Position numbers and translations under genes: made by a program. 34,108 nt of DNA, from assembly GCA_902780565.1 (NCBI GenBank), contig CACZGD010000011.1, positions 1-34,108 on the forward strand. The letters run 5' to 3'. This document shows positions 15,348 to 23,484 of this stretch, one piece after another. The notes under the pieces were generated by a model. The model was not told the origin of the DNA. It searched no databases and saw only the letters and a program-made list of their open reading frames with translations. The DNA is from Oscillospiraceae bacterium. Lineage in GTDB: Bacteria; Bacillota; Clostridia; Oscillospirales; Acutalibacteraceae. Each line of letters begins with the position of its first letter. Position 1 is the stretch's first letter.

Positions 15348-17093
15348 TCAATACTTCTTTCTCGGGGTGTAGCCGGTATGCAGGATCTCGTGCGACTTGT
15401 GAGAGAGCGGCTCGCCGAAATACTCGGCGTAGATCGCCTTGATGTCGGGGTTCTCGTGGCTCTTTCTGACGGGCAGATTCTGATCGTCCTGATACAGCGC
15501 CTGCGCGCGGATGGCTCTGACGTCCGTAAAGTTGCGGACGTTCGCCGGAACGATAGGCTGACCGCCGCCGTTGACGCAGCCGCCGGGGCAGGCCATGATC
15601 TCGATGAAATCATAATTCCGCTTGCCGGCCTTGATGTCGTTCAGCAGCGTCTTGGCGTTCGCCGTGCCGGAGACGACGGCCACGCGGATGGTGTTGCCGG
15701 CGATCTCGTAAGTCGCTTCCTTGATGCCCGCGGTGCCGCGCACGTCGTTGAACTCCAGCTTCTTGAGCTCTTCGCCGGTCAGGACCTCGTAGGCGGTACG
15801 AAGCGCAGCCTCCATCACGCCGCCGGTCGCGCCGAAAATGGTACCGGCGCCGGAGCCGAGGCCGAAGGGGGCGTCATAGGTGCCCTCGGGCAGCTCGTTG
15901 AACAGGATGCCTGCCTTTTTGATCATGCGGGCAAGCTCACGCACGGTCAGGACCGCGTCGATATCCGGAAGTCCCTTGACGGCCGTGTGGTCCATGCGCT
16001 CCGCCTCGAACTTCTTGGCGGTGCAGGGCATGACGGACACGACGTAAACGTCCTTGGGGTCCCAGCCCATCTTTTCGGCGTAATAGGTCTTTGCGACCGC
16101 GCCGAACATGCCCTGGGGGGACTTGCAGGTGGACAGATTCGGAATGAACTCCGGGAAATAGGTCTCGCAGAACTTGATCCAGCCGGGAGAGCAGGAGGTG
16201 ATCTGCGGCAGATTCTCCTTCTTCGTATAACGGACAAGGAATTCGTTGGCCTCCTCCATGATGGTAAGGTCCGCGGAGAAGTTGGTATCGAACACGTGCT
16301 CGAAGCCGAGCGCGCGCAGCGCGGAGACCAGCTTGCCGGTGACGATGGTGCCGATCGGCAGGCCGAATTCCTCGCCGAGACCGACTCTGACGGAGGGCGC
16401 GGTCTGGACGACGACGTGCTTGGTCTCGTCGCGCAGGGCTGCCATGACCTTTTCGGTATCGTCACGCTCGGAGAGCGCGCCGGTGGGACAGGCCACGATG
16501 CACTGACCGCAGGAGATGCAGCCGACGTCGCCGAGCGGTACGTCGAACGAGCAGCCGATATGGGTATCGAAGCCTCTCGCGTTCGCGCCGATCACGCCGC
16601 AGCCCTGATTGACCGCGCAAACGGCGGAGCAGCGGCGGCACAGAATGCATTTCTCGTTATCACGATACATATGCGATGCGGAGCGGTCGATCTCATAGTG
16701 GGACTTGACGCCTTCATAAGCGTGCTCGTCCTCGATGCCGTAGTCGTGGCAGAGCTTCTGCAGCTCGCAGGAGCCGGAGCGCACGCAGGACAGGCACTCG
16801 CGCTTATGGTTGGAAAGGATGAGCTTGAGGGTGGTTTTTCTGGCTTCCACGACGCGGGGCGTGTTCGTGAAGATTTCCATGCCTTCGTTCACGGGGAACA
16901 CGCAGGCGGCGACGAGGCTTCTCGCGCCCTTGACCTCCACCATGCAGATGCGGCAGGCGCCGATCTCGTTGACGTCCTTGAGGAAGCAGAGCGTCGGGAT
17001 CTGGATCCCGGCCTTGCGGCAGGCAGTCAGAATGGTGCTGCCCGCTTCGACGGCATAATCTCTGCCGTTGATTTTGATATTGACTTCAGCCAT
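15348..17093 (-). CDS. hydA: [FeFe]-hydrogenase catalytic subunit (HydA/HndD type)
   Basis: The 581-residue product makes or uses H2 at an H-cluster. Domains in order: a plant-type [2Fe-2S] ferredoxin fold (GACRICMVEV, residues ~35-65); a His/Cys [4Fe-4S] site (HKRECLSCVRSGSCELQ); a two-cluster ferredoxin (CILCRRCSAVC and CISCGQCIVACPTG); the H-cluster domain; and the small-subunit segment ending in YTPRKKY. H-cluster motifs are L1 TSCSPGW with Cys301-Ser302, L2 MPCTAKKFE with Cys357, and L3 MACPGGCVNGGGQP with Cys502 and Cys506. The L1 Ser in place of the second Cys of the textbook TSCCPxW is unusual. Co-transcription with NuoF-like and NuoE-like subunits points to a soluble NAD(P)-linked, probably electron-bifurcating enzyme. 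It is the last gene of the operon, 13 bp behind hydB, with AAGGAGG before its ATG. Confidence 0.96.
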   Translation of the reverse strand: MAEVNIKINGRDYAVEAGSTILTACRKAGIQIPTLCFLKDVNEIGACRICMVEVKGARSLVAACVFPVNEGMEIFTNTPRVVEARKTTLKLILSNHKRECLSCVRSGSCELQKLCHDYGIEDEHAYEGVKSHYEIDRSASHMYRDNEKCILCRRCSAVCAVNQGCGVIGANARGFDTHIGCSFDVPLGDVGCISCGQCIVACPTGALSERDDTEKVMAALRDETKHVVVQTAPSVRVGLGEEFGLPIGTIVTGKLVSALRALGFEHVFDTNFSADLTIMEEANEFLVRYTKKENLPQITSCSPGWIKFCETYFPEFIPNLSTCKSPQGMFGAVAKTYYAEKMGWDPKDVYVVSVMPCTAKKFEAERMDHTAVKGLPDIDAVLTVRELARMIKKAGILFNELPEGTYDAPFGLGSGAGTIFGATGGVMEAALRTAYEVLTGEELKKLEFNDVRGTAGIKEATYEIAGNTIRVAVVSGTANAKTLLNDIKAGKRNYDFIEIMACPGGCVNGGGQPIVPANVRNFTDVRAIRAQALYQDDQNLPVRKSHENPDIKAIYAEYFGEPLSHKSHEILHTGYTPRKKY

Positions 17094-17106: not shown

Positions 17107-18906
17107 TTATTTCTTGGAAATCGCGCCGAACTTGCACTTCTCCATGCAAGCGCCGCACTTGATGCACTTGGACTGGTCGATCACATGCGGGTTCTTGACC
17201 GTGCCGGAGATGGCTCCAACGGGGCAGACTCTGGAGCAGAGCGTGCAGCCGCGGCACTTGTCGGGGTCAATGGAGATGGTGAGCAGGTTCTTGCACACGC
17301 CCGCGGGGCAGCGCTTTTCGACGACGTGGGCGATATATTCGTCCTTGAAGAAGCGATAGGTCGAAAGCACGGGGTTCGGGGCGGTCTGGCCGAGGCCGCA
17401 GAGAGAGTTATCCTTGATATATTTGCAGAGACGTTCCATCTCGTCAAGGTCTTCGAGGGTACCGTTGCCCTTGGTGATCTTGTCGAGGATCTCATACAGA
17501 CGCTTGGTGCCGATCCGGCAGGGCGTGCACTTGCCGCAGGACTCGTCCACGGTGAACTCGAGGAAGAACTTCGCGATATCCACCATGCAGGTGTCCTCGT
17601 CCATGACGATCAGACCGCCGGAGCCCATCATGGCGCCCTGCGCGATCAGGTTGTCGTAGTCGATCTCGATATCGAGCAGCGAGGCCGGGATACAGCCGCC
17701 GGAGGGGCCGCCGGACTGCGCAGCCTTGAACTTTTTGCCGTTCGGGATGCCGCCGCCGATGTCTTCCACGATCTCACGCAGCGTGGTGCCCATGGGGATC
17801 TCGACAAGGCCGGTGTGCTTGATCTTGCCGCCGAGGGCGAAGACCTTGGTGCCCTTGGACTTTTCGGTGCCCATGGAGTTGAAGAAGGACGCGCCCTTGA
17901 GGATGATCTGAGGAATGTTTGCGAAGGTCTCGACGTTATTCTCGGTGGTGGGCTTGCCGAACAGACCCTTGACCGCCGGATACGGAGGACGGGGACGCGG
18001 CTCGCCGCGGTTGCCCTCGATGGAAGTCATGAGCGCCGTTTCCTCGCCGCAGACGAACGCACCTGCGCCGAGACGGATGTGCAGATCGAAGTCAAAGCCG
18101 GAACCGAAGATATCCTTACCGAGCAGGCCGTAGCCTCTCGCGTCCTCGATCGCCTTCTGCAGTCTCGCGACCGCGATGGGATACTCCGCGCGAACGTAGA
18201 CGTAACCCTCGGTGGCGCCGGTGGCGTAGCCGCAGATGGTCATGGCCTCGATGATGCAGTGGGGGTCGCCTTCGAGGACGGAACGGTCCATGAACGCGCC
18301 GGGGTCGCCCTCGTCCGCGTTACAGACGACGTATTTCTGATCCGCCTGATTCTTGGCGGTAAAGCTCCATTTGAGACCGGTGGGGAAGCCGCCGCCGCCT
18401 CTGCCGCGGAGACCGGAATCCTTCACGACCTGAATGACCTCGTCGGGGGTCATTTCGGTCAGCGCCTTGCCGAGCGCCGCGTAGCCGTCCATCGCGATAT
18501 ATTCGTCAATGGATTCGGGATTGATCACGCCGCAGTTTCTGAGGGCGACGCGCTTCTGCTTGGAATAGAAGACGGTATCGTTCAGCGAGACGTTGCCGTG
18601 CTCCACGACGACGTCCTTCGCGACGTCGTTATAGACCAGTCTTTCGACCACTCTGCCCTTGAGCAGATGCTCGGAAACGATCTCGGCTACGTCCGACTCC
18701 TGCACCTGCGAGTAGAAGGTGCCGTCCGGATAGACGATGACGACAGGACCGAGGGCGCACAGACCGAAGCAGCCGGTACGGACGATCTTGACTTCATCCG
18801 CCAGGTTGTTTTTCTGGATCTGGGTCTCGAATTCGGTGATCAGCTTTTTACTTCCGGAAGAAGTACAGCCCGTGCCGCCGCAAATCAGTACTTGGGATCG
18901 AACCAT
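17107..18906 (-). CDS. hydB: NuoF-like flavoprotein subunit of the hydrogenase
   Basis: The 599-residue product is the diaphorase subunit of HydABC/Hnd enzymes. The N-terminus is a thioredoxin-like [2Fe-2S] domain (GGTGCTSSGSKK and TGCFGLCALGP). The NuoF core follows, with the FMN/NAD loop GLRGRGGGGFPTGLKWS, CNADEGDPGAFMDR, GAGAFVCGEETAL, an SLBB segment (IPMGTTLREIVEDIGGGIP) and the [4Fe-4S] site ESCGKCTPCRIGTKRL. The C-terminus adds a two-cluster ferredoxin (CRGCTLCSRVCPVGAI and CIKCGACMEKCKFGAI). It passes electrons between NAD(P)H and ferredoxin or HydA. The gene lies between the HndB-like gene (19 bp upstream) and hydA (13 bp downstream). Length and domain order are those of complete family members. 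Confidence 0.96.
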   Translation of the reverse strand: MVRSQVLICGGTGCTSSGSKKLITEFETQIQKNNLADEVKIVRTGCFGLCALGPVVIVYPDGTFYSQVQESDVAEIVSEHLLKGRVVERLVYNDVAKDVVVEHGNVSLNDTVFYSKQKRVALRNCGVINPESIDEYIAMDGYAALGKALTEMTPDEVIQVVKDSGLRGRGGGGFPTGLKWSFTAKNQADQKYVVCNADEGDPGAFMDRSVLEGDPHCIIEAMTICGYATGATEGYVYVRAEYPIAVARLQKAIEDARGYGLLGKDIFGSGFDFDLHIRLGAGAFVCGEETALMTSIEGNRGEPRPRPPYPAVKGLFGKPTTENNVETFANIPQIILKGASFFNSMGTEKSKGTKVFALGGKIKHTGLVEIPMGTTLREIVEDIGGGIPNGKKFKAAQSGGPSGGCIPASLLDIEIDYDNLIAQGAMMGSGGLIVMDEDTCMVDIAKFFLEFTVDESCGKCTPCRIGTKRLYEILDKITKGNGTLEDLDEMERLCKYIKDNSLCGLGQTAPNPVLSTYRFFKDEYIAHVVEKRCPAGVCKNLLTISIDPDKCRGCTLCSRVCPVGAISGTVKNPHVIDQSKCIKCGACMEKCKFGAISKK

Positions 18907-18925: not shown

Positions 18926-19291
18926 TCAAATGTTCTTAATTGCGTACTCCTCTAAGACTTTACCGCCCTGAAGATGTGTTTCAACGACTTCCTTGGCCTT
19001 TTCCGCCGTCATTTTGACGTAGGTGACCTTTTCCTTGCCCGCTTCGTAGACTTCCACGACGGGCTCGAACTGGCAGATGCCGATGCAGCCGGTCTGCGTG
19101 ACCGTCACCTTGTCGGAAAGCCCGGCCTTGCTGACCTCTTCCACGAAGGCGTTCAGCACGGGTCTTGCGCCGGCGGCAATGCCGCAGGTCGCCATGCCGA
19201 CCACAACGCGCAGATTGCCGCTGCCTTCACGCATCACGACTTTGTTCTGCATTTTCTCTCTGATTGCCTGAAGTTCTGCTAAAGATTTCAT
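18926..19291 (-). CDS. HndB-like thioredoxin-fold [2Fe-2S] ferredoxin subunit
   Basis: The 121-residue product has an N-terminal helix (SLAELQAIREKMQNKV), then a thioredoxin-like ferredoxin fold with VGMATCGIAAGARPV and VTQTGCIGICQFEPVVEVY. It resembles HndB of NADP-reducing hydrogenases and the N-terminal domain of NuoF-type subunits. Only three Cys are present (36, 69, 73), so one of the usual four cluster ligands is missing or replaced. The cluster may be bound atypically or be absent. AAAGGAAC precedes the ATG. It lies between the GHKL ATPase gene (44 bp upstream, the widest gap in the operon) and hydB (19 bp downstream), at the border of signalling block and catalytic genes. Confidence 0.85.
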   Translation of the reverse strand: MKSLAELQAIREKMQNKVVMREGSGNLRVVVGMATCGIAAGARPVLNAFVEEVSKAGLSDKVTVTQTGCIGICQFEPVVEVYEAGKEKVTYVKMTAEKAKEVVETHLQGGKVLEEYAIKNI

Positions 19292-19335: not shown

Positions 19336-19884
19336 TCATTCACCCGCGTACTGCTCGCGGAGATAGTCGCCGATCCAGGAAATGACCTCCGGCGTGGAAA
19401 GCGGCACGTCCCCGAGGACGGCCTTCAGCTCCTCCGTATCGAGGGCGACCTCCTTATCCGGGAAGGTGTGCCGGAAGATCCAGCGGATCTGATCGTCCCC
19501 CTGGATCAGAACGGTCACGGAGGAGATCACGTCGCCGAGCGGGATGAAATCAAGATGCTTCTTCATAAAGCTGGCGCCGATCACGGTGCCGTGATGAACG
19601 GGATCGTCCTCCTCATGCGTGCTTTCGATGTGGAACACGCCGCCCGTCATTTCGCTTTCCATCTTGAACAGCGGGATCCCCATGCCGACCTTGCGGGTTG
19701 TGCGGGTGGTCGTGAACGGATCTGTGACAGACGCAAGAAAATCGGGCTTCATGCCGCAGCCGTTATCCCGGATCTCAATGGAGAGCGTTTCGTCGTCCTC
19801 CCGCAGCAGGATCGAGATCTCGGTCGCGCCGGCCTTGACGGAATTCTTTGCGATATCGAGAATATTCAGGGATAATTCCTTCAT
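19336..19884 (-). CDS. GHKL ATPase domain protein (second of two in the operon)
   Basis: The 182-residue product is a stand-alone histidine-kinase-type ATPase domain with a short C-terminal extension. Motifs: N box in LNILDIAKNSVKAGATEI (Asn binds Mg2+), G1 box RDNGCGM, and a lid/G2 region in TTRTTRKVGMGIPL. There is no dimerisation/phospho-acceptor domain and no sensor domain, so it is not a classical histidine kinase. Its partner for phosphorylation or binding is unknown. The ~70 residues after the ATPase fold (from FIPLGDVISS) are unlike RsbW and may bind a partner. It overlaps the PHP gene by 4 bp (ATGA), so the two are translated in tandem. It differs in length and sequence from the first ATPase at 22203-22625. 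Confidence 0.85.
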   Translation of the reverse strand: MKELSLNILDIAKNSVKAGATEISILLREDDETLSIEIRDNGCGMKPDFLASVTDPFTTTRTTRKVGMGIPLFKMESEMTGGVFHIESTHEEDDPVHHGTVIGASFMKKHLDFIPLGDVISSVTVLIQGDDQIRWIFRHTFPDKEVALDTEELKAVLGDVPLSTPEVISWIGDYLREQYAGE

Positions 19885-20621
19885 GCCTTCTCCCCTTTCA
19901 GGAACCGGATGAGCTCGGTCCGGACCAGCTCCGACGAATAGGGCTCGTCCTCCAGCGTCAGACTCTCGTTCTCCTCCCGGATGCTCCAGAGGTTATGCGC
20001 GTCGGACGAAACGAGGATCCGTCGGCTTCTGAGCGCCGGATGATCCCGGAAATAAGCTTCCTTTTTCGTGCCGTCGTAAAACTCCGCGTTCAGGAAGCCC
20101 GGAATATCCGGAAACGTGCCGAGCGTGGCGATGACGCCGTTTGCCTCCCGGTCCACGTGGGCGGGATAGGAGACGCCGCCGAAGCGGTCGATGAGCGCGG
20201 GCACGTCGTCGATCATGACGTCCGTCGCGGGCAGCAGGAAATGCGGATCGGTCCCGACGACGCGATCTTCTTCGTCCATGATGAGCTGACGCCCGAAGAT
20301 CCTTTCGTTCAGGGGGATCGGCATTCTGCGCCGCTCGATCTCGCGGTCGAAGTCCAGCGCGGCTTCAAGCGACGGCAGCAGGCAGACGACGTGGATATCC
20401 TCCGCCGTGGTCAGCTCCATGCCGGGGACCGGCACGATGCCGTAGCGCTTTGCGGCCTTGAAGAACGCAGGACAGTTTTTGCAGGTGTTATGATCCGTCA
20501 GCGCCATGATCTGCAAACCGACCAGCGCGCCGACGCCCGCGATGTTCGCGGGGGTCATATCGTCCTCCCCGCAGGGGGAGAGACAGGAATGGATGTGAAA
20601 ATCGTAACGGTACGGATTCAT
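19881..20621 (-). CDS. PHP-domain phosphoesterase
   Basis: The 246-residue product has the PHP metal-binding motifs: HIHS with His9 and His11 at the N-terminus, LTDHNTCKNC, PGMELTTAEDIHVVCL, YPAHVDREANG and SSDAHNLWSI near the C-terminus. PHP proteins hydrolyse phosphate esters with two or three metals; relatives include RNase/5'-nucleotidase YciV (RNase AM) and histidinol phosphatase. In a hydrogenase operon its substrate may be a signalling nucleotide or a phosphorylated partner, but that is inference. It overlaps both neighbours by 4 bp (DRTGG protein upstream, GHKL ATPase downstream). An extra Cys cluster (SCLSPCGEDD, CKNCP) near the active site is notable. Confidence 0.88.
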   Translation of the reverse strand: MNPYRYDFHIHSCLSPCGEDDMTPANIAGVGALVGLQIMALTDHNTCKNCPAFFKAAKRYGIVPVPGMELTTAEDIHVVCLLPSLEAALDFDREIERRRMPIPLNERIFGRQLIMDEEDRVVGTDPHFLLPATDVMIDDVPALIDRFGGVSYPAHVDREANGVIATLGTFPDIPGFLNAEFYDGTKKEAYFRDHPALRSRRILVSSDAHNLWSIREENESLTLEDEPYSSELVRTELIRFLKGEKA

Positions 20622-20944
20622 ACGTCGTCGCGCAGCAGCACGGCCGCCTCAAAGGTCGGTTTTTCCGTGGAAGCGACGTTCACGCCCTTGGCCTTCGCAG
20701 CCGCTAGGATCTCCGGCTCCGGCTGCACGTTTTCGGTCAGCAGGACGAGCGCGACGTCCGTCAGGGATGCGACCGCCACGGTATTGATGTTCGTCATGAT
20801 CGTGAGCCAGACGTTATCGCTCCCGGCCCTGCCCATGACCCAGGAGAGCAGGTCGCCGATATAGCAGCCGGAGACCTCCCGGTCGGGGTCCGGCAGAGAC
20901 AGCGCGGTAAATCCGTGCCGATCCAGCAGCTCCTTCACGGTCAT
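20618..20944 (-). CDS. stand-alone DRTGG-domain protein (second copy)
   Basis: The 108-residue product starts at the ATG at 20944, which overlaps the stop of the sensory hydrogenase gene (ATGA) and follows AGGAGG. It opens with MTVKELLDRHGFTALSL, then SGCYIGDLLSWVMGRA, VWLTIMTNINTVAVASLTDV and a final PTFEAAVLLRDD. This is the layout of DRTGG domains, better known as a regulatory part of some phosphotransacetylases and of CBS-domain proteins. No catalytic residues are evident, so it probably binds a ligand or partner. It shares the family but little exact sequence with the other DRTGG gene at 22618-22968. A longer open frame to 20986 would overlap the upstream gene further and lacks a ribosome site. 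Confidence 0.85.
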   Translation of the reverse strand: MTVKELLDRHGFTALSLPDPDREVSGCYIGDLLSWVMGRAGSDNVWLTIMTNINTVAVASLTDVALVLLTENVQPEPEILAAAKAKGVNVASTEKPTFEAAVLLRDDV

Positions 20945-22206
20945 TCTTCGGTCGCCTCCTTTTTCCGCTGCGCCAGCACCACGCACACACGGTCCCCCGC
21001 AAGGCCTCTGACGGCGTCCTCCGCAAACGCGCGGCAGGTCGGGGATCCGCAGGCGCCGCAGTCGATGCCCGGCAGCTTCTTTTTCATCGTCTGGATCTCA
21101 GCCATCATCCGCATGCTTTCGCCGATGGAATCGGCAAGCCGCGTGATGGGCTTATAATCGGGTTTTTCGTCCGTCAGGAAATCCACGGGGACCGCGATCT
21201 CCTCCGGCGACAGGTAGTTTTTAGATACGGGCAGGAACCGGCGCACGGTCTGCAGACGCGTTTTCGCGATGAACGGGTTTTCGATCGTCATCACGCCGCC
21301 GACACAGCCGCCGGGACAGGCGTTGAGCTCCACGAATTCGAGCTGCGGGATGTTGCCGTTCTCGATGGAATCCAGCACCTTGATGCAGTTCTCGATCCCG
21401 TCCGCGGAGAGATAGGAATCGTTGAGCAGCGCGGTGGCTTCCCCGCCGGACGACGCCCAGCCGATGCCGATCATGCCGGATTCGCCCGTAACGGACGGAC
21501 TGCGCCCGCGCTTCATGGCGCCGAGCAGCAGGAAATAGATATCGTTGAGTCCGACCACCACGTCCACGTGGCTTTTATAGCCGCCGTAGCCGTTGCGGAT
21601 ATAGCTGACCTTGGCGGGACAGGGCGAAATGAAGAAGGTCGCGATATCCTCGTCCGTCAGCTCAGGGTGTTTGCGCTTCGCCCGTTCCCGCGCCAGGATC
21701 GCCGCCACCTCGAGCGGGGGCAGGATCGGCAGCAGGTTATCCTTCAGATACGGGAAGCGCAGGGAGATCAGCCGCGCGATCACGGGACACGCCGAAGAGA
21801 TCACGGGCTTTTTGATATGTTCCGTTTTCAGATAAAGACGCGTATAGGCAGTGACAAGCTCCGCGGCCTTGCTGACCTCGTAAACGTCGTCAAAGCCGAT
21901 ATCGAGCAGCCCCTGCAGCACCTCGTCCACATCGTCCAGACCGTTGAACTGCCCGAACAGCGTCGGCGCGGGCAGGGCGATCTTCCACTTATGGTGGGTA
22001 TAGTGCTCAAACTTGGAGCACATCGCCTTTTTCGCGTTGTTTTCGCAGGTGCGGATGCACTCGCCGCAGTCGATGCAGCGGTCGGGATCGATATGCGCCT
22101 TACCCTCCACAATGCGGATCGCTTCGGTGGGACAGCGGCGCACGCAGGAGGTGCAGCCCGTACATTTCTCTTTATCCAGAACGACGGAATGCCTGTATTC
22201 GTTCAT
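20941..22206 (-). CDS. putative sensory [FeFe]-hydrogenase (HydS-like)
   Basis: The 421-residue product holds a two-cluster ferredoxin domain (CTGCTSCVRRC at 15-25, CIDCGECIRTC at 44-54), then a degenerate H-cluster domain. L1 reads VISSACPVIA with Ala139-Cys140, L2 is SPCPAK with Cys196, L3 is NACPGGCVGG with Cys297 and Cys301. All four H-cluster Cys ligands are kept, but the proton-relay Cys beside the L1 ligand is Ala, as described for the sensory hydrogenase of Thermotoga. The L2 Met and the GGGxP end of L3 are lost. The C-terminus (GIDCGACGSPTCRAFAED, Cys383, 386, 391, 408) is a further Fe-S domain of the CxxCx4Cx16C kind. No PAS domain is fused; the neighbouring ATPases and DRTGG proteins may carry the signal. 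It is translationally coupled on both sides. Confidence 0.93.
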   Translation of the reverse strand: MNEYRHSVVLDKEKCTGCTSCVRRCPTEAIRIVEGKAHIDPDRCIDCGECIRTCENNAKKAMCSKFEHYTHHKWKIALPAPTLFGQFNGLDDVDEVLQGLLDIGFDDVYEVSKAAELVTAYTRLYLKTEHIKKPVISSACPVIARLISLRFPYLKDNLLPILPPLEVAAILARERAKRKHPELTDEDIATFFISPCPAKVSYIRNGYGGYKSHVDVVVGLNDIYFLLLGAMKRGRSPSVTGESGMIGIGWASSGGEATALLNDSYLSADGIENCIKVLDSIENGNIPQLEFVELNACPGGCVGGVMTIENPFIAKTRLQTVRRFLPVSKNYLSPEEIAVPVDFLTDEKPDYKPITRLADSIGESMRMMAEIQTMKKKLPGIDCGACGSPTCRAFAEDAVRGLAGDRVCVVLAQRKKEATEE

Positions 22207-22625
22207 AATCTGATCGTCATCGTGATCTTCGTGCCGACGCCGACGCGGGTATCGATCTGCATGTCGTCGGTATACCGCTTCATGTTCGGCAGACCCATTC
22301 CGGCGCCGAATCCAAGGCTGCGCACCTGATCAGAAGCGGTGGAATACCCCTCCTGCATCGCAAGCGCGATATCCTTGATGCCGGGGCCCTTGTCGTCCAG
22401 CGTAATCACGATCTTATCCTCATAGACGTCCACGTCGGCGAAGCCGCCGTTCGCGTGGATGACCATATTGATCTCGCCCTCATACATGGCGATGGACACG
22501 CGGCGGATCACCTCCGGCGGGAGCCCGAGCTCGCGCAGGTTCTTTTTGACCTGCACGCTGGCCTGCCCCGCGGAAACGAAGTTTTCGCCGTCCACGTCGA
22601 AATGGAAATTCAGTTTGTCACTCAT
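22203..22625 (-). CDS. RsbT/RsbW-like ATPase, anti-sigma-factor type
   Basis: The 140-residue product is a GHKL ATPase of the serine-kinase/anti-sigma size class. Visible motifs are an N box in SIAMYEGEINMVIHANGG, a G1 box in LDDKGPGI and a G2 box in LGFGAGMGLPNMKRY. RsbW/RsbT/SpoIIAB relatives phosphorylate STAS-domain proteins or hold a sigma factor; no STAS or sigma gene is seen in this window. The start ATG at 22625 lies inside the end of the preceding DRTGG gene (8-bp overlap); upstream in-frame codons up to 22703 belong to that gene's shadow. The end overlaps the sensory hydrogenase by ATGA. Tight coupling suggests that this ATPase works with the H-cluster protein. Confidence 0.9.
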   Translation of the reverse strand: MSDKLNFHFDVDGENFVSAGQASVQVKKNLRELGLPPEVIRRVSIAMYEGEINMVIHANGGFADVDVYEDKIVITLDDKGPGIKDIALAMQEGYSTASDQVRSLGFGAGMGLPNMKRYTDDMQIDTRVGVGTKITMTIRL

Positions 22626-22968
22626 GCTTTGCACCGCCAAGTCCATGGTAGTAGAGCGTGCCGCAGGCTTCATACATCCGTTTGCCGGACGCAAGAAGCG
22701 CAATGGAGCTCTCTTCTGCCAGCTCGATCATCTCGGGCGTGGGGACCTTGGAACGAACGAATACGACGCAAACCATATCCATCATCGCAGCAGTGCGAAT
22801 GACCTGGGAATTGACAAGTCCCGTGAGCAGGACCGCCTGATCCTTGACGTACGCAAGCACGTCGCTCATCATATCGCTGCCGCAGGCGGAATGCACATCT
22901 GTTTCAAGGGCGTCCTCGCCGCAGACGACCTCAGCGTCCAGCAGCTCTTTGATTTCTCGGATCTTCAT
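22618..22968 (-). CDS. stand-alone DRTGG-domain protein (first copy)
   Basis: The 116-residue product starts at an ATG behind GGAGGAA and begins MKIREIKELLDAEVVCG, followed by ACGSDMMSDVLAYVKDQAVL, then VIRTAAMMDMVCVVFVRSK and a final helix with EESSIALLASGKRMYEACG. This is the DRTGG layout. It carries several Cys (16, 29, 67, 101), more than the second copy, including CGSD at a place that may sense redox or bind metal; that is inference. It is the first gene behind hydC (21 bp gap) and overlaps the RsbT-like ATPase by 8 bp. DRTGG and ATPase thus form a coupled pair upstream of the sensory hydrogenase. Confidence 0.88.
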   Translation of the reverse strand: MKIREIKELLDAEVVCGEDALETDVHSACGSDMMSDVLAYVKDQAVLLTGLVNSQVIRTAAMMDMVCVVFVRSKVPTPEMIELAEESSIALLASGKRMYEACGTLYYHGLGGAKHE

Positions 22969-22989: not shown

Positions 22990-23484
22990 TCAGGCGTATT
23001 TCTCAAGGATGCCCTTGATCTGGCTGGGCTCCAGCTTGCCGTAAACGTCGTCGTTGATCATCATGACGGGGGCAAGACCGCAGGCGCCGATGCAGCGGCA
23101 GGCTTCCAGGCTGAATTTGGTATCGAGCGTGCACTCGCCGGGATCGATGCCGAGCTCCTTGACAAGCTCGTCCAGCACCTGCTGGCTGCCCTTGACGTAG
23201 CACGCGGTGCCGAGGCACACGGAGACGTTATACTTTCCCTTCGGGGAGAGCGCGAACTGCGCGTAGAAGGTGGCGACGCCGTAAACCTTCTCGACCGGGA
23301 CGTCCAGACCTTCCGCAATGCGGACCTGCACCTCATAAGGCAGATAGCCGTAGATCCCCTGCGCGTCCTGCATGACCGCCATCAGACGGTTCTTGTCGCC
23401 GTTCGCGGCGGCGATGGCTTCTTCCAGCGCCTTCGCCTGCTCCGGCGTCTCGGTAAAGGGAATTTTGCTGATCTTTTTGACCAT
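22990..23484 (-). CDS. hydC: NuoE-like [2Fe-2S] subunit of the hydrogenase
   Basis: The 164-residue product is the thioredoxin-like subunit of HydABC/Hnd enzymes (NuoE family, usual length). An N-terminal helical region (ALEEAIAAANGDKNRLMAVM, then QGIYGYLPYEVQVRIAE) precedes the ferredoxin fold with Cys90 and Cys95 (VCLGTACYVKG) and Cys131 and Cys135 (RCIGACGLAPVMMIND), the four ligands of the [2Fe-2S] cluster. The start ATG at 23484 follows GGAGGAA; upstream codons in the same frame to 23733 cross the promoter. It is the first gene of the ten-gene operon, although its partners HydB and HydA are the last two, some 4-6 kb away. It would shuttle electrons between HydB and HydA or a soluble carrier. 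Confidence 0.95.
   Translation of the reverse strand: MVKKISKIPFTETPEQAKALEEAIAAANGDKNRLMAVMQDAQGIYGYLPYEVQVRIAEGLDVPVEKVYGVATFYAQFALSPKGKYNVSVCLGTACYVKGSQQVLDELVKELGIDPGECTLDTKFSLEACRCIGACGLAPVMMINDDVYGKLEPSQIKGILEKYA

Follow-up and report, generated by a model that had tools for sequence, protein, structure and literature searches.

A five-gene cassette around a putative sensory [FeFe]-hydrogenase is conserved beside genes of NADH and ferredoxin exchange

The window analysed here, a stretch of 34,108 nucleotides from an Oscillospiraceae bacterium (GenBank assembly GCA_902780565.1, contig CACZGD010000011.1), carries ten minus-strand genes that run from 23484 to 15348 as one tight operon, in the order hydC, DR1, AT1, HydS, DR2, PHP, AT2, a thioredoxin-like 2Fe-2S gene, hydB and hydA (Table 1). 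DR1 and DR2 encode DRTGG proteins, AT1 and AT2 GHKL ATPases, PHP a predicted metallophosphoesterase and HydS an H-cluster protein that carries the features of the group D (M2e) putative sensory [FeFe]-hydrogenases of the TamHydS type. The conserved unit in this operon is a five-gene cassette, DR1-AT1-HydS-DR2-PHP. The hypothesis with which we work, and which we hold with roughly even confidence, is that HydS is a sensor of H2 and ferredoxin poise which passes its signal by way of AT1 to DR1, that DR2 and PHP reset the switch, and that an adjoining hub enzyme is tuned as a result. An earlier note on this DNA had described a six-gene signalling block, DR1 to AT2, inside the hydrogenase operon. 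The six genes do lie on the minus strand at 19336-22968, overlapping by 8 bp (DR1/AT1) or 4 bp (AT1/HydS, HydS/DR2, DR2/PHP and PHP/AT2) and followed by a 44-bp gap 3' of AT2, much as the note had it, and the matches of the window proteins to HATPase_c_2, Fe_hyd_lg_C, PHP and HATPase_c are all above the Pfam cut-offs. The claim that six genes separate hydC from hydB-hydA holds for those six in the window, but overlooked a seventh, the 2Fe-2S gene (18926-19291).

HydS homologues scoring above 264 bits, a threshold below which there is a gap down to the next matches at 142 bits, were found in 138 of the 291 genomes of our class sample. In a phylum sample of 249 genomes, 90 had a HydS match of E 1e-70 or better, and a scan of named genomes gave at least 568 relatives. 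The best 80 of these, those closest to the HydS of locus L051 (L and G numbers are our labels for loci and genomes), were taken as loci; most are labelled Clostridia or other Bacillota, two are Spirochaete records and one is a Syntrophorhabdales record, making only three loci from those phyla (L112, L137 and L145). Together with 60 and 20 chosen loci they made a set of 160, reduced to 153 by dropping loci whose HydS was at least 90 % identical to another. Partner genes were counted where they lay on the same strand near HydS and the flank was long enough, with profiles that had been built on the very loci counted. Across loci the genes mostly follow the order of the window. In the testable non-redundant loci AT1 stands beside HydS in 142 of 146, and DR1, DR2 and PHP stand near it in 134/143, 136/147 and 126/137, respectively; the complete set of four is found around HydS in 114 of 130. 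The count scores L039 as lacking AT1, although the locus map shows AT1 there.

The same association is seen at the level of whole genomes. Both HydS and the PHP gene occur in 134 of the 291 genomes, HydS alone in four, PHP alone in one and neither in 152, so that the PHP gene accompanies HydS in 134/138 genomes versus 1/153 genomes without HydS (Fisher p 2.5e-77, a value that ignores shared ancestry). Within genus g36 two genomes (G025, G059) have both genes and three (G136, G201, G242) have neither, and within genus g27 one (G152) has both and six (G016, G051, G106, G197, G239, G275) have neither; such joint presence or absence points to a functional tie beyond common descent. Given this co-occurrence, and the common order of the four partners at HydS, a chance cluster of unrelated genes is ruled out for practical purposes. 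Where the cassette has been reduced, AT1 can be the sole partner left beside HydS (L112, L125, L128, L149), and we rank AT1 first among the candidate partners of HydS. In one of these loci the next gene (L128:11401-13311), which comes directly after AT1-HydS and a two-component system, encodes an H-cluster domain and FeS motif fused to a methyl-accepting chemotaxis protein signalling domain, which speaks for sensing.

AT2 follows another pattern. It is present in 148 of the 291 genomes, 14 of which lack HydS, and all 14 have a HydA of group A6 type. In the eight of these that we viewed (L176, L180-L183, L186-L188) AT2 sits among the hydC, 2Fe-2S and hydB genes, with hydA next in six, L176 and L187 being the others. 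Its usual company is hydC-2Fe2S-hydB-hydA, and where the cassette is inverted (L039, L040, L078) AT2 remains with hydC and the enzyme genes. In L060, L174 and L175 AT2 has PHP on one side and an rnfC or rnfC-like gene on the other; in L201 the cassette precedes rnfC without AT2. L072 and L092, in which AT2 is 3' of PHP and hydB does not adjoin it, are exceptions to the enzyme-side pattern. As AT2 goes mostly with the enzyme genes and also occurs without HydS, we do not take it for half of a second pair: the window, in our reading, holds a single sensory cassette and, besides it, an ATPase on the enzyme side, and the two DRTGG-ATPase pairs proposed in the earlier note are not supported. The co-occurrence of six genes across genomes that the note suggested looking for is borne out for the five-gene cassette, AT2 going mostly with the enzyme genes. 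Two loci from genomes with neither a HydS nor a PHP match (L181, L186) have a lone DRTGG-like gene near hydC, which may be left over from the system or represent a simpler form of it.

The common theme of the genes that adjoin the cassette is NADH and ferredoxin exchange. These neighbours were identified by Pfam for selected genes and otherwise by size and first residues. Insertion between hydrogenase subunit genes, as the note described it, applies to the window and is not general: the cassette is 5' of hydC in many loci (e.g. L036, L038, L045) and precedes rnf genes in L060 and L201. In L216 (G140:C3) the order is AT1-HydS-DR2-PHP-hydC-AT2-2Fe2S-hydB, a 160-residue gene and then rnf genes, with no hydA in that stretch, and hydC-AT2-2Fe2S-hydB here has the look of an Rnf-linked NADH module. 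In L047 and L176 hydCB sets lie near rnfC-like genes (by a weak profile match only). Molybdopterin oxidoreductase genes of the formate dehydrogenase type come after hydCB in L197, L205 and L206; in all three of these loci, the ones viewed, the formate-dehydrogenase-type gene is split by an in-frame TGA (L197:1548-1550, L205:1615-1617, L206:13963-13965), which would fit a selenocysteine codon. L196 has, 3' of hydB, a gene whose product combines a DNA-binding N-terminus with a CoA-binding domain, as Rex does. As the cassette also occurs beside Rnf and formate-dehydrogenase-type genes, its target looks like an NADH/ferredoxin hub and not the hydrogenase alone. These settings bear too on another explanation, that the genes are not a signalling module but a kit for assembling or repairing HydABC. 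Their position in the operon would suit such a kit, and ATPases and a phosphoesterase could serve assembly; but some cassettes have Rnf or formate-dehydrogenase-type genes as neighbours instead, and 114 of the 246 genomes with an A6-type HydA (class sample) lack HydS, and we therefore consider this explanation very unlikely.

The assignment of HydS to group D is by motifs and domain layout. Two [4Fe-4S] motifs at the N-terminus precede the H-domain of the protein, a Cx2Cx4Cx16C motif stands at its C-terminus, and Pfam detects no PAS domain in the 421-residue window HydS, unlike in group C. Conservation was scored in 61 HydS sequences (the window and 60 loci picked from the 138 genomes to span families). 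The C-terminal cysteines (C383, C386, C391 and C408 in the window) are each kept in 61/61, as are the four H-cluster cysteines, and the N-terminal motifs (C15-C25 and C44-C54) are present in 60/61, the exception, L075, ending at a contig edge. The position of the proton-transfer residue Cys299 is Ala in 47 and Ser in seven of the 61 (A139 in the window), and that of Met353 is Ser or Thr in 60 (S194 in the window). Matched to 17 published TamHydS residues, the numbering agrees at 13 in the best cases (L051, L090) and at ten in the window, where the register is shifted. According to the papers on TamHydS, the group D enzyme of Thermoanaerobacter mathranii, replacement of Cys299 and Met353 and the C-terminal motif are features of group D (PMC8163306, PMC13104023). 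TamHydS is described there as binding H2 and turning it over slowly; its secondary structure shifts upon reduction, H2 does not reduce its C-terminal cluster, and the sensory role of the group is termed putative (PMC8163306, PMC13104023).

Among solved structures the AT1 profile is closest to SpoIIAB (1til, E 7.8e-13) and then to RsbW (E 5.9e-5), and AT1 aligns to SpoIIAB across the ATP-binding motifs (SEAVTN in SpoIIAB). The Bergerat ATP-binding boxes are intact: E49, N53, D78, G80, G82 and G105-G111 (numbered from the ATG at 22625) are kept in 58/58 sequences, the Glu presumably being catalytic and the Asn Mg-binding, as in SpoIIAB/RsbW-type boxes. The PHP protein has D7, H9, H11, D43, H44, E69, H77, H155, D207 and H209 invariant in 57/57, ten positions that we take to be metal ligands from what is known of the PHP family. 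The signalling block around a HydS-type protein that the note envisaged is real and conserved, and these motifs and ligands in it are intact. The AlphaFold2 (AF2) model of PHP (predicted local distance difference test score, pLDDT, 96) lies nearest to solved folds of nucleotide or nucleic acid phosphoesterases, the nearest folds and profiles being 3o0f, EndoQ, RNase AM and 2yb1. A CpsB-type tyrosine phosphatase was rejected as an identity for PHP, there being none among the 50 matches listed; histidinol phosphatase appeared only at E 0.03.

DR1 and DR2 are paralogues (hhalign 99.6 %, E 4e-24). The AF2 model of DR1 (pLDDT 89) resembles the DRTGG structure 2ioj with a template-modelling (TM) score of 0.82, and scores 0.74 and 0.68 against 3l31 and 1ko7 (all three by query length). 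The possibility that DR1 is a hidden STAS fold was rejected, since all seven Foldseek matches below E 0.001 are DRTGG or HprK structures; of the two DRTGG proteins this fold test covers DR1. S35 of DR1 is found in 58/58 sequences and T49, T59 and K74 in 57/58 each, and D31, S34, T48 and N54 of DR2 (numbered from the ATG at 20944) in 59/59. DR1 S35 and T49 and DR2 S34 and T48 may, to judge from their conservation, be phosphate acceptors or ligand contacts. In a comparison of distances over 93 loci, taken as residuals after removal of the HydB distance, the highest correlations, weak ones, were DR2-PHP (0.37) and DR1-AT1 (0.31).

Conservation, the fold matches and these two correlations together suggest that HydS, AT1 and DR1 make up a forward arm, and DR2 and PHP a reset arm. 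In the working hypothesis HydS would be a group D hydrogenase of slow turnover, with clusters that report both H2 and ferredoxin poise and a shape that would change on reduction; every later step we infer. AT1 would read this change as an ATP-dependent switch or as a Ser/Thr kinase of the SpoIIAB/RsbW kind, with DR1 as its likely client in the place that STAS proteins hold in partner switching. DR2 and PHP would form the opposing arm, removing a phosphate or a nucleotide signal. The output would then tune the adjoining hub enzyme, be it Rnf, HydABC or a formate-dehydrogenase-type protein together with hydCB, perhaps by way of AT2 and perhaps through transcription.

A number of observations weigh against this hypothesis. 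No STAS, sigma, PP2C or DNA-binding gene was found among the ten operon genes by Pfam scan, and the output we propose is therefore a guess. The residual distance correlation of AT1 with HydS is just 0.21, below DR1-AT2 (0.28) and DR2-AT2 (0.27), values that do not favour AT2 as an outsider or AT1 as the partner of HydS. AT1 and DR1 are barely better conserved than HydS, with mean distances on the 93 common loci of 0.48, 0.50 and 0.52; given this small spread we make no argument of the mean column identities, which come from differing sequence sets (AT1 71 %, DR1 65 %, PHP 51 %, HydS 50 %, DR2 47 %). In G211 and G269 the four other genes of the cassette stand together before rnf-like genes (L174, L175), and HydS itself is elsewhere in these genomes (L073, L069), near Rnf/Nqr-type genes. 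L147 is a lone HydS; its assembly also has L153, a cassette without a clear DR2 in the first map. STAS proteins are encoded elsewhere in the genome in 34 of the 35 cassette genomes checked, and HydG was not found in 32 of the 138 HydS genomes, which is odd for an H2 sensor if real. As to the lone HydS-like gene in L069 and L073, it lies near RnfD-, RnfG-, RnfE-, RnfA- and NqrF-like genes, among which there is no RnfC-like frame.

The STAS genes, for which the earlier note had suggested a search, make ordinary partner switching through a STAS protein elsewhere possible. AT1 would then be the anti-sigma factor or kinase for STAS and sigma proteins encoded elsewhere, and the output would be hydABC transcription. 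The closeness of AT1 to SpoIIAB and RsbW favours such a system. In the window operon, however, no STAS antagonist or sigma gene adjoins AT1, as it does for SpoIIAB and RsbW; DRTGG and PHP genes fill the places beside AT1 and HydS in most loci; the predicted fold of DR1 is that of DRTGG and not of STAS; and G075, which has HydS and PHP and is 97 % complete, is without a PF01740 protein, the only STAS model searched. On balance we think classical partner switching unlikely.

Another alternative is that HydS is a ferredoxin/NADH redox sensor and not an H2 sensor, its H-cluster site being a redox-tuned iron-sulfur site. This would suit the cassettes that stand beside Rnf or formate-dehydrogenase-type genes without an adjoining hydA, the replacement of the proton-transfer Cys by Ala or Ser in most HydS (54/61), and G140 (97 % complete), in which HydS is the sole Fe_hyd_lg_C match and neither HydG nor HydF was found over the cut-off. 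The H-cluster cysteines are intact in G140, however, and in all 69 HydS scored irrespective of HydG status, and the equivalent of K358 is kept in 49/55 HydS with HydG and in 10/14 without. HydG matches of E 1e-90 or better are missing also from 81 of the 246 genomes with an A6-type HydA, so that the absence of HydG is not specific to HydS and is perhaps technical, and we draw from it no conclusion on H2 sensing. TamHydS, as reported, binds and turns over H2 (PMC8163306), and further Fe_hyd_lg_C proteins are encoded elsewhere in G518 and G341, genomes in which the cassette has formate-dehydrogenase-type neighbours. We accordingly regard a purely redox-sensing HydS as improbable. HydF fell below the cut-off in ten of 24 genomes, a set picked partly for missing HydG, and in the single-contig genomes G063 and G518 neither HydG nor HydF was found over the cut-off, yet the H-domain matches reach 333-338 bits. 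Either maturation is otherwise achieved in such genomes or there are gaps in the search or the data. The source genome of the window encodes HydF and HydG on another contig, and its only H-domain proteins in the Fe_hyd_lg_C search are HydA and HydS.

A broader form of the working hypothesis, tentative and to our minds a little less unlikely than either of these two alternatives, is that the cassette is a general poise sensor. AT1 would act on DRTGG proteins and not on STAS, PHP would erase the signal, AT2 would be the enzyme-side receiver and the adjoining hub enzyme would be gated; in lineages without maturation genes HydS may be a plain Fe-S redox sensor.

Table 1. Genes of the operon in the window, in the order of transcription
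Gene	Coordinates	Strand	Product and place	Profile match
hydC	22990..23484	-	NuoE-like 2Fe-2S subunit; operon gene 1	PF01257, 171.7 bits
DR1	22618..22968	-	Stand-alone DRTGG protein; cassette gene 1	PF07085, 29.5 bits (cut-off 25.2)
AT1	22203..22625	-	SpoIIAB/RsbW-like GHKL ATPase; cassette gene 2	HATPase_c_2, PF13581, 42 bits
HydS	20941..22206	-	Group D (M2e) putative sensory [FeFe]-hydrogenase; cassette gene 3	PF02906 (Fe_hyd_lg_C) and PF04060
DR2	20618..20944	-	Second DRTGG protein; cassette gene 4	PF07085, 29.4 bits (cut-off 25.2)
PHP	19881..20621	-	PHP-family metallophosphoesterase; cassette gene 5	PF02811, 33 bits
AT2	19336..19884	-	GHKL ATPase	HATPase_c, PF02518, 48.2 bits
2Fe-2S gene	18926..19291	-	Thioredoxin-like 2Fe-2S ferredoxin; between AT2 and hydB	PF01257, 27.1 bits (cut-off 24.8)
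hydB	17107..18906	-	NuoF-like FMN/NADH subunit	PF01512, PF10589
hydA	15348..17093	-	Catalytic [FeFe]-hydrogenase, group A6	NF040763, 890.5 bits (cut-off 765)

The start of hydC in Table 1, the methionine of MVKK, was chosen by inspection, and NF040763 is the NCBIfam model 'NADH-dependent [FeFe] hydrogenase, group A6'. The L1 motif of HydA (15348-17093 in the window), compared over 84 loci, is TSCSPGW in 81 of 84 proteins and TSCCPGW in three; the Ser presumably occupies the position of the second Cys of the prototypical enzyme.

The linkage of HydS to a hydrogenase operon has been published before (PMC8163306, PMC3561251, PMC3608648), and group D HydS genes are reported to lie upstream of those for trimeric hydrogenases, in many cases separated from them by a kinase-like gene (PMC3561251 Table 6, PMC3608648, PMC8163306). 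For Clostridium thermocellum, HydS is given as Cthe_0335 and the hyd genes as Cthe_0340-0342 (PMC3561251). Among the papers listed by full-text searches none describes the DRTGG-ATPase-HydS-DRTGG-PHP set, for which a prior mention is possible in subscription papers such as Calusinska 2010, and the pairing of 'hydrogenase' with 'DRTGG' gave one paper, unrelated to judge from its excerpt (PMC10102598). The TamHydS paper of 2026 calls for the identification of interaction partners and treats signalling as an open question (PMC13104023). We can now name four candidate partners that stand beside HydS in most loci, AT1 foremost, and add that the module follows an NADH/ferredoxin hub, Rnf and formate-dehydrogenase-type genes included, and not the hydrogenase alone. 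If the working hypothesis is true, the cassette would be a new kinase-type switch, with DRTGG clients replacing STAS, that controls H2 and electron balance in anaerobic fermenters.

The nearest known system is TamHydS itself, which shares the domain layout, the Cx2Cx4Cx16C motif, the altered L1 and L2 residues, the lack of a PAS domain and a place upstream of a trimeric bifurcating hydrogenase; the available portions of the TamHydS papers, by contrast, mention neither a DRTGG or PHP partner nor a conserved cassette (PMC8163306, PMC13104023). In the T. mathranii genome Tmath_0862 is placed in an 'Fd-linked' column and called group D-like in the text, Tmath_0865-0869 are also listed, and two genes lie between them, as in the cassette (PMC3608648). 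Tmath_0862 is probably TamHydS, and the gene there labelled 'AraC' probably DR2. The group C proteins with PAS (HydS of T. maritima and R. albus and HfsB of T. saccharolyticum) likewise have a slow sensory H-domain beside another hydrogenase, and kinase or phosphatase neighbours have been proposed for them (PMC5707799, PMC10055695, PMC11837493); they differ in that PAS is fused to the sensor, whereas the cassette HydS has no PAS and is accompanied by separate GHKL, DRTGG and PHP proteins. SpoIIAB and RsbW share with AT1 the GHKL ATPase family and an alignment through the ATP-binding motifs, but the cassette has DRTGG proteins and a PHP enzyme in place of STAS, sigma and PP2C. Finally, the DR1 model matches both the CBS-DRTGG pyrophosphatase 3l31 and the HPr kinase N-domain 1ko7, from which the predicted DRTGG proteins of the cassette differ in being stand-alone, as two paralogues with no catalytic domain attached.

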